From positions 1 to 64,000 of the forward strand of contig NZ_AHIL01000055.1 in the NCBI RefSeq assembly GCF_000241525.1: a stretch of DNA of 64,000 nt, written 5' to 3'. Positions 10,080-11,463 of this stretch are shown one piece after another (within the stretch, counting starts at the first letter, position 1; every line of letters begins with the position of its first letter). This DNA is from Comamonas testosteroni ATCC 11996 (GTDB lineage Bacteria > Pseudomonadota > Gammaproteobacteria > Burkholderiales > Burkholderiaceae_C). Under the pieces are notes generated by a model. It saw nothing but the letters and a program-made list of their open reading frames with translations. It made no database searches and was not told where the DNA came from. A program made the position numbers and the translations under genes.

Positions 10080-11240
10080 TCAGGCCAGCACTTCAGCTTC
10101 CTGCTTGCTGGCGAGCGCAGCAGCGCGGCGCTGGCTCACGGCCTGCGACAGCTCTTGCAGCGTTGCCAGGGAATCATCCCAGCCCAGGCAGGCATCGGTA
10201 ATGCTCTGGCCATAGGTCAGATCGCCCACTTCGTCCTTGCCGGGCGTGAACTTCTGTGCACCGCCGACCAGGTGGCCTTCGATCATCACGCCGAACACGC
10301 TGCTGGAGCCGCCGGCGATCTGAGCTGCAATATCACGGGCCACATCCTTCTGGCGCTCATGCTGCTTGTTGCTGTTGGCGTGACTGCAGTCCACCATCAG
10401 CGAAGGTGTGAGGCCTGCTGCCTCCAGATCCCGGCAGGCGGCCGCCACATGTGCGGAATCGTAGTTGGGGGTCTTGCCGCCGCGCAGAATCACGTGGCAG
10501 TCCTGGTTGCCTCCCGTGTGCACGATGGCGACCTGACCGTTCTTGTGCACCGACAGGAAGTGGTGACCGCGGCTGGCCGACTGAATCGCGTCTGTGGCAA
10601 TGCGGATATTGCCGTCCGTGCCGTTCTTGAAGCCAATCGGCGCCGAAATGCCCGAGGCCAGTTCGCGGTGCACCTGGCTTTCCGTGGTGCGGGCACCGAT
10701 GGCGCCCCAGCTGATCAGATCACCGATGTACTGGGGCGAGATCACATCCAGAAATTCGCTGGCCGCAGGCACACCCAGACGGTTGATGTCGATCAGGAGC
10801 TGGCGCGCAATTCGCAGGCCTTCGTCGATGCGATAGCTCTGATCCAGGTAGGGATCATTGATCAGTCCCTTCCAGCCCACGGTGGTGCGGGGCTTCTCGA
10901 AATAGACGCGCATCACCACTTCCAGCGTGTCCTTGTACTGCTCGCGCACGACCGCCAGGCGGCCGGCGTAGTCCAGGGCAGCGGCCGGATCGTGAATGGA
11001 ACAAGGGCCGACGATGACCAGCAGGCGGTCATCTTGCGCACGCATGATGTTGTGGATGCTGCGGCGAGTGTCGCTGATCAGCGTCTCCACGGCAGTGCCG
11101 CGAATGGGGAAGAAGCGAATGAGGTGCTCTGGAGGGGGTAACACTGTGATTTCCTTGATGCGTGCGTCGTCGGTCTGGCCTGTCTTGGGAGAGCCGGCGC
11201 GATACCAGGAATCAGTGGCGGAAGTGTTCAGAGCAGTCAT
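10080..11240 (-). CDS. aroG: 3-deoxy-7-phosphoheptulonate (DAHP) synthase, class I
   Basis: 386 residues. Condenses phosphoenolpyruvate and erythrose-4-phosphate, the first committed step of the shikimate pathway. It is a class I (AroG/AroF/AroH) enzyme with no added domain. Visible motifs are VIVGPCSIHD, the metal- and substrate-binding KPRTTVGWKGLINDP, GARTTESQVHRELASG, LRGGKTPNYD and VDCSHANS. The start MTALNT at 11240 matches enzyme length. Which aromatic amino acid inhibits it cannot be read safely. An attenuator (leader peptide plus terminator, 11300-11427) precedes it, so transcription is probably controlled by aromatic aminoacyl-tRNA supply. Symbol used for the class; the isoform is uncertain. 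Confidence 0.95.
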   Translation of the reverse strand: MTALNTSATDSWYRAGSPKTGQTDDARIKEITVLPPPEHLIRFFPIRGTAVETLISDTRRSIHNIMRAQDDRLLVIVGPCSIHDPAAALDYAGRLAVVREQYKDTLEVVMRVYFEKPRTTVGWKGLINDPYLDQSYRIDEGLRIARQLLIDINRLGVPAASEFLDVISPQYIGDLISWGAIGARTTESQVHRELASGISAPIGFKNGTDGNIRIATDAIQSASRGHHFLSVHKNGQVAIVHTGGNQDCHVILRGGKTPNYDSAHVAAACRDLEAAGLTPSLMVDCSHANSNKQHERQKDVARDIAAQIAGGSSSVFGVMIEGHLVGGAQKFTPGKDEVGDLTYGQSITDACLGWDDSLATLQELSQAVSQRRAAALASKQEAEVLA

Positions 11241-11299: not shown

Positions 11300-11334
11300 A
11301 AAAAAAACCGCCGGGCTTTGCAGCTTCGGCGGTT
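11300..11334 (-). terminator. Attenuator terminator of the DAHP synthase gene
   Basis: On the minus strand AACCGCCG and CGGCGGTT form an 8-bp stem (11327-11334 with 11306-11313) followed by a run of T (11300-11307 is A8 on plus). It begins 30 bases after the leader-peptide stop and ends 59 bases before the aroG start. It must therefore be read through for aroG expression. Its 5' arm can alternatively pair with leader bases 11376-11381 (CGGCGG) or, shifted, with 11388-11393. Confidence 0.88.
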
Positions 11335-11364
11335 CTTTGGGAGGTGTTTGCAGGGTGCGCGCGT

Positions 11365-11427
11365 TTACCTCTCAGCCGCCGGGGGCGAGAACCAAAAGTA
11401 AAAGAAATAGGCGCGTTGCGTTTGCAT
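11365..11427 (-). CDS. Aromatic leader peptide of DAHP synthase attenuator
   Basis: A 20-codon ORF, MQTQRAYFFYFWFSPPAAER. Codons 7-13 are seven consecutive aromatic codons (2 Tyr, 4 Phe, 1 Trp). The stop (TAA) is 30 bases before an intrinsic terminator that precedes aroG. This is the organisation of classical ribosome-mediated attenuators such as pheL. Stalling on the aromatic codons would leave 11376-11381 free to pair with the terminator 5' arm and allow readthrough; smooth translation would let the terminator form. The longer in-frame reading upstream (to 11556) lacks a plausible ribosome site and would run across the likely promoter. Confidence 0.88.
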   Translation of the reverse strand: MQTQRAYFFYFWFSPPAAER

Positions 11428-11463
11428 GTCTTTCAATGTAGCACAGCTCTTTTGCATTGCAAC

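Follow-up and report, generated by a model that had tools for sequence, protein, structure and literature searches.

How is the aroG gene of Comamonas testosteroni controlled, and does the short stretch of DNA in front of it form a switch that reads the supply of aromatic amino acids? In the window, the whole stretch of 64,000 nucleotides analysed here, the initial annotation had placed a small ORF rich in aromatic codons and an intrinsic terminator before a DAHP synthase gene. Read directly, the minus strand carries, in this order, an extended -10 box, a gap of 7 nt, the leader ORF, a spacer, a stem-loop followed by a T8 run, and aroG, with tldD lying upstream of the leader on the same strand. 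The coordinates that had been assigned proved exact to the base, the claimed seven consecutive aromatic codons do occupy codons 7-13 of a 20-codon ORF, and the proposed alternative pairing partner of the terminator at 11376-11381 reads CGGCGG at exactly that place. The extended -10 box before the leader ATG had been missed and is new here. The features of the locus are the following:

11435..11443, minus strand: extended -10 box TGCTACATT, the predicted leader promoter (TG at 11443-11442, TACATT at 11440-11435), from the cross-locus comparison
11427..11427, minus strand: predicted transcription start, the A of the leader ATG, placed by the 7-nt gap to the -10 box
11365..11427, minus strand: leader peptide ORF, MQTQRAYFFYFWFSPPAAER, 20 codons (ATG 11427-11425, TAA 11367-11365), read directly
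11389..11409, minus strand: aromatic codon run, codons 7-13, Tyr Phe Phe Tyr Phe Trp Phe, read directly
11411..11415, minus strand: segment 1, CGCGC, predicted to pair with segment 2' if no ribosome covers segment 1 (fold and partner-swap test)
11376..11381, minus strand: segment 2, CGGCGG, putative 5' arm of the antiterminator (GGCGG conservation; covariation with segment 3)
11358..11362, minus strand: segment 2', GCGCG, predicted partner of segment 1 (fold and partner-swap test)
11327..11332, minus strand: segment 3, CCGCCG, putative arm common to antiterminator and terminator (covariation)
11313-11308, minus strand: segment 4, the terminator CGGCGG, read directly
11302..11338, minus strand: predicted intrinsic terminator stem-loop, segments 3:4 (fold and conservation of the CCGCC..GGCGG-T stem)
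11300..11307, minus strand: T8 run of the terminator, read directly
10080..11240, minus strand: aroG, DAHP synthase (AroFGH type), the presumed controlled gene (TIGR00034, 529.8 bits against a cut-off of 173.2)

The narrower AroG model NF006723 gave the same gene 550.6 bits, below its cut-off of 568. Two further hairpins were noted around the locus: a twelve-pair hairpin with a T-rich tail at 10054-10027, 3' of aroG, which is likely the aroG terminator, and, by eye, a hairpin AAGACCCCG..CGGGGTCTT with a weak T run close behind tldD at 11739-11707, which is perhaps the tldD terminator. The former came from a simple hairpin scan with a loop limit of 8, in which the terminator of the aroG leader is not listed. 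A search of the window against Rfam gave no match at gathering score, and three matches from another search (E values of 1.6-3.7), all to unrelated families, were set aside as chance level.

The initial annotation had made its reading depend on the leader ORF being conserved in related species, and this is what we found. Among the best 80 aroG loci of the Comamonadaceae, one (L031) has only 31 upstream bases and was left out of the counts; all of the remaining 79 carry an aromatic leader ORF upstream of aroG, defined here as an ORF with an ATG start, 12-34 codons and at least five aromatic residues in nine. These leaders are 18-25 codons long and comprise 52 distinct peptides, that of the closest named relative among the best 80 loci, Comamonas testosteroni JL40 (98% AroG identity), being identical to the peptide of the window. 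ORFs of this kind occur on the sense strand in 79/79 loci; when the same stretches are read in antisense, 2/79 have one, and 940 control blocks of 420 bases from elsewhere in these loci have none. Across relatives, the aromatic runs are maintained with differing residue order and differing synonymous codons, as the proposed comparison of codon changes had anticipated. In a wider set that reaches beyond the Comamonadaceae, 90 of 94 loci have an ATG-started ORF with at least five aromatic residues in nine, although the ORF picked in one of these 90 (L138) is the wrong one; by eye, the run is shorter in L178 and stands behind a non-ATG start in L129 and L179. Two distant leaders retain the stems without an intact run, L186 having lost the aromatic run and the ORF of L138 being interrupted by a stop after three Phe codons.

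Codon content was compared across 167 leaders (L117 and L138 were left out of this codon and frame count), of which 92 belong to the Comamonadaceae set (60 distinct peptides, including that of L096, from another family) and 75 lie outside it (73 distinct). The Comamonadaceae set has a mean of 4.1 Phe, 1.7 Tyr and 1.1 Trp codons, with Trp present in 91/92, and the other leaders have a mean of 4.6 Phe, 2.0 Tyr and 0.6 Trp codons, with Phe in 75/75, Tyr in 69/75 and Trp in 35/75, leaving 40 without a Trp codon. To judge from the codons, Phe, Tyr and Trp may all serve as signals in Comamonas. A scripted motif search found GGCGG close to the ORF end in 77/79 Comamonadaceae loci; it was found in 158 of the 167 leaders, where it is read in three frames (the frame count excludes the nine without GGCGG in the searched stretch). 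It encodes Gly-Gly in 73/89 leaders of the Comamonadaceae set, and x-Ala in 57/69 and Arg-Arg or Trp-Arg in 8/69 of the others; in many Acidovorax-type leaders the stop codon follows directly after it, and elsewhere the ORF continues through it. With GGCGG kept while frame and residues change, what is conserved at the switch is the RNA and not the peptide.

Counted from the first base of the final aromatic codon, the start of GGCGG follows 11-15 nt later in 46 of 47 aligned loci; the exceptional locus has a Phe codon just before segment 2. These observations bear on the possibility of nascent-peptide sensing as exemplified by TnaC, in which the peptide itself arrests its ribosome and the signal is a free aromatic amino acid or a pathway compound and not tRNA charging. 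Bulky aromatic residues in a row close to the end of a short peptide would suit such an arrest; however, the leaders differ widely in which aromatic residues they have and in what order, and also in their C-terminal residues, no fixed motif is visible, and the constant spacing between run and GGCGG fits stalling on codons, and we consider arrest by the peptide very unlikely.

In all 79 Comamonadaceae loci a box of the pattern TGnTAnA[GT]T precedes the leader ATG with a gap of 6, 7 or 8 nt (8, 47 and 24 loci, respectively), the pattern having been allowed a spacing of 4-10 nt and having also been used to choose between in-frame ATGs. With this extended -10 box only 6-8 nt away from the ATG in 79/79 loci, the leader mRNA is probably leaderless, with its start at or next to the leader ATG. 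The box emerged from the locus comparison, a simple scan of the window finding no sigma-70 promoter by its rules; by eye, a weak -35-like TTGCAA stands at 11462-11457. Of 46 dereplicated loci, 45 have 140-152 nt between the -10 box and the T run, the other having 166 nt; the ORF end, by contrast, lies a variable 86-157 nt from the aroG match (L031 and L041, for which the wrong ORF had been picked, left out). Transcription starting downstream of the terminator had been named as an outcome that would speak against attenuation; the predicted promoter sits upstream of the terminator instead, and together with the conservation of the ORF it supports the attenuation reading. Outside the Comamonadaceae, a looser pattern recovered an extended box in 23/82 loci; of all 93 loci scanned in the wider set, 37 showed no box. 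For L105 and L109, which belong to a family of the order with large genomes, inspection by eye places a -10-like box tens of bases upstream of the leader ATG, and a leaderless start is therefore not universal.

The compensatory stem changes that the initial annotation had suggested looking for were seen for three helices. The CCGCC..GGCGG-T terminator stem is present in 79/79 Comamonadaceae loci and in 96/96 loci of the wider covariation set, in which the inner pair of segments 3:4 is A-T in 55 and G-C in 33 loci (88/96 paired), and the outer pair is A-T in 85, G-C in 10 and G-T in 1. For segments 2:3, counted without the 7/96 loci that have no located segment 2, the tested position is A-T in 34 and G-C in 23 loci, with 61/89 paired and 28/89 having no standard pair there. 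On the 89 loci, 0/10,000 shuffles, which ignore relatedness, reached the observed pairing of either 3:4 or 2:3, and the same result (0/10,000, phylogeny not modelled) was obtained on 83 distinct triples. The pairing of segment 1 with segment 2' survives changes between GCGCG/CGCGC, CGTTC/GAACG and GCGAA/TTCGC, and a partner-swap test on 46 loci gave 0/10,000, the swaps again ignoring relatedness. This duplex test was used beside the alignment test because MAFFT breaks the register of the 1:2' helix; the alignment result was mixed, at 1/500 for the covariation score and 245/500 for pairs with two-sided change, with shuffles that ignore relatedness. The outer antiterminator is weakly supported, at 284/10,000 in the duplex test. 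L003, a near copy of the window, was excluded from both the duplex partner-swap test and the ribosome-position folding tests. Another alignment, A3, omits L086, L100, L104, L147, L183 and L186. Taken as they stand, the compensatory changes support the predicted terminator, the antiterminator and the third helix, 1:2'. As for stability, the terminator piece (58 nt) reaches -20.8 kcal/mol, its shuffles averaging -9.7 (z -4.35; 0/200 shuffles as low). The whole 140-nt leader stands out less (z -1.69; 13/200 as low), and no unusual stability is seen for the antiterminator stretch of the window (91 nt; z -0.75; 33/200 as low).

To see how far the element extends, a covariance model (R1) was built from the Comamonadaceae loci and applied at a threshold of E <= 0.01. 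Among the 399 genomes of the order, 97 gave matches, at 99 places in all; 12 of these genomes are in the Comamonadaceae, and the count is a lower bound for weak matches (strict filters). All 90 examined places lie just upstream of an aroG match on the same strand; the nine others of the 99 include the weakest matches. In the class, R1 matched 13/369 genomes: three of the own family, four in two other families, whose loci (L115-L118) have aroG and aromatic leaders, and six without aroG. The eight class-level loci L119-L126 (E 4e-4 to 7e-3), which have no aroG match, were dropped as chance; three of them gave no ORF and one a 4-of-9 aromatic run. Across the 94 checked loci (90 from the order and 4 from the class, with L053 and L061 omitted), the element lies -5 to 151 nt from the aroG match, and no leader stands before a gene other than aroG. 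A wider model, R2, matched 180/399 genomes of the order at E <= 0.01, of which only the places with E <= 7e-6, 105 in 104 genomes, were accepted as likely real because weaker ones resemble plain terminators by score; in the class it matched 11/369 genomes at 1e-4, with four at E 2.5e-5 to 9.6e-5. A weak R2 match at 22206-22114 of the window (E 0.004), a terminator-like hairpin, is probably due to chance. In 20 upstream regions of DAHP synthases, taken from 27 such places in 21 genomes and representing 16 families in which R2 gave nothing better than 1e-5, a similar test found no aromatic leader, two of the regions having a chance ORF with four aromatic residues in nine; the element is therefore bound to certain families and does not accompany every aroG. 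R2 detects no leader at the aroG copy carried on a plasmid of Cupriavidus sp. EM10.

This linkage also bears on whether the terminated RNA might be mainly a trans-acting small RNA, or the peptide might act in trans, with attenuation of aroG being secondary. Trans action has been reported for rnTrpL and peTrpL of Sinorhizobium meliloti, and the terminated Comamonas transcript, about 128 nt long, would begin with the AUG, as rnTrpL does (both according to the available parts of PMC7298713). Yet the pairing in cis accounts for the conservation, and the element is linked to aroG in 94/94 loci checked, which leaves a primary role in trans extremely unlikely. That the hairpin is a plain terminator for tldD read-through beside a spurious ORF, with no regulation at all, is barely credible, for although terminators between genes are common and tldD does precede the leader in the same orientation, such ORFs occur in 0/940 control blocks, a conserved promoter box stands between tldD and the terminator, the segments co-vary three ways, and tldD has by eye its own hairpin close behind it.

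The analysis shows the parts of the aroG leader, how they are conserved and co-vary, and that they are linked to aroG. The leader is very probably a ribosome-mediated transcription attenuator, and it is best explained as one that senses Phe, Tyr and, depending on the lineage, Trp. We infer the following course, from the leaderless start through stalling and termination to the amino-acid response and its direction. Transcription would start at or next to the leader ATG, and a ribosome would translate the 20-codon leader while RNA polymerase proceeds. If charged Phe-, Tyr- or Trp-tRNA is scarce, the ribosome would stall in codons 7-13, where it would cover segment 1 and free segment 2; segment 2 would then pair with segment 3 before segment 4 is made, so that no terminator would form and aroG would be transcribed. 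With an ample supply, the ribosome would reach the stop codon and cover segment 2, and segments 3:4 would terminate transcription at 11300. Without a ribosome, segment 1 would pair with segment 2', and the terminator would form as well.

Folding tests with a ribosome placed on the RNA fit this course in their geometry, but their outcome is partly fixed by the way they are set up. The edge of the ribosome footprint was taken to lie 12 nt past the A-site codon. When the RNA was cut behind segment 3, which excludes the terminator, a stall on at least one aromatic codon gave the antiterminator in 46/46 loci, and stalls on all codons except the last did so in 41/46. A ribosome at the stop codon gave the terminator in 46/46, the folded RNA being that downstream of the ribosome and so without segment 2, and the terminator also formed in 46/46 without a ribosome. 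In the full-length RNA after a stall, the terminator is still the minimum-energy fold in 42/46 loci, and antitermination must therefore be kinetic. In no more than 31/46 loci is segment 2 covered by a ribosome that has reached the stop codon, and a ribosome on the last aromatic codon hides part of segment 2, 3/5 of the GGCGG bases pairing in the window.

The same genome has a second AroFGH-type DAHP synthase (C10:23878-24936, L002; 56% identical), upstream of which no aromatic leader was found by eye or by script. Two further model matches in this genome (E 0.2 and 0.7) have no aroG and were rejected. Profiles for TrpR and TyrR (PF01371, TIGR04381) gave no match in the genome at E <= 0.001, with E. 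coli controls positive, which agrees with the absence of both regulators from classes other than gammaproteobacteria stated in the accessible portion of PMC5343134. Attenuation at a DAHP synthase had been presented by the initial annotation as a notable alternative to repression by TyrR and TrpR; it now looks less unusual, TrpR and TyrR being reported as gammaproteobacterial and Corynebacterium glutamicum offering a precedent (PMC5343134, PMC4046766 and PMC11802643, as far as their available text goes). Among the open-access papers listed, judged by titles and the beginnings of abstracts, none reports an aroG leader for Burkholderiales or betaproteobacteria, and the main text of a 2010 survey of premature terminators (PMC2965389) does not contain "DAHP" or "heptonate". 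A 2010 survey of structured RNAs names a "Burkholderiales-1" motif, for which its available text holds no details for comparison (PMC2864571), and it is possible that the aroG attenuator was already detected as an anonymous motif in an earlier survey.

What the element offers is a testable answer to how the first committed aromatic step is controlled in bacteria reported to be without TrpR and TyrR (PMC5343134, available text), an absence that the present analysis confirms for this genome only. We are evenly divided on a broader picture, in which one old attenuator would govern the shikimate entry across much of an order reported to be free of TrpR and TyrR, the mixed codons would act as an OR gate for Phe, Tyr and Trp, gain and loss of Trp codons would tune lineages, and a leaderless start in the Comamonadaceae would let the ribosome load as the RNA emerges. 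Leaders with and without Trp codons make a natural series for testing the integration of several amino acids by one mixed run of codons. The mechanism itself is classic.

In the trpL, pheL and pheST leaders of E. coli, attenuation relies on an antiterminator and a terminator that are mutually exclusive, and these leaders carry a Shine-Dalgarno site. They likewise have an ORF with the sensed codons and take aminoacyl-tRNA supply as the signal (PMC11802643, in its available parts), but they control different genes and each senses a single amino acid. The enteric TyrR/TrpR system shares a metabolic goal with the aroG leader (PMC5343134, available text), although it consists of protein regulators, neither of which was found in the Comamonas genome. 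Closer in its predicted start is rnTrpL/trpL of S. meliloti, a leaderless RNA whose 5' end is at the leader ATG and which attenuates trpE(G); it differs in that target, in belonging to an alphaproteobacterium and in its reported trans functions (available parts of PMC7298713). A survey of Actinobacteria found Phe and Tyr operons not to be preceded by conserved RNA structures (PMC1262725, available text). At the same enzyme step, the DAHP synthase gene aroF of C. glutamicum is reported to be under attenuation by the aroR leader, with more transcription under Phe limitation (PMC11802643 citing Neshat 2014; PMC4046766), so that, going by the accessible text of these sources, the principle of classic attenuation is known for a DAHP synthase in Corynebacterium also. 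The likeness is one of description: aroR is actinobacterial and its leader peptide has Phe-Tyr-Phe (PMC11802643, PMC4046766, available parts), whereas the Comamonas leader has seven aromatic codons, Trp among them.
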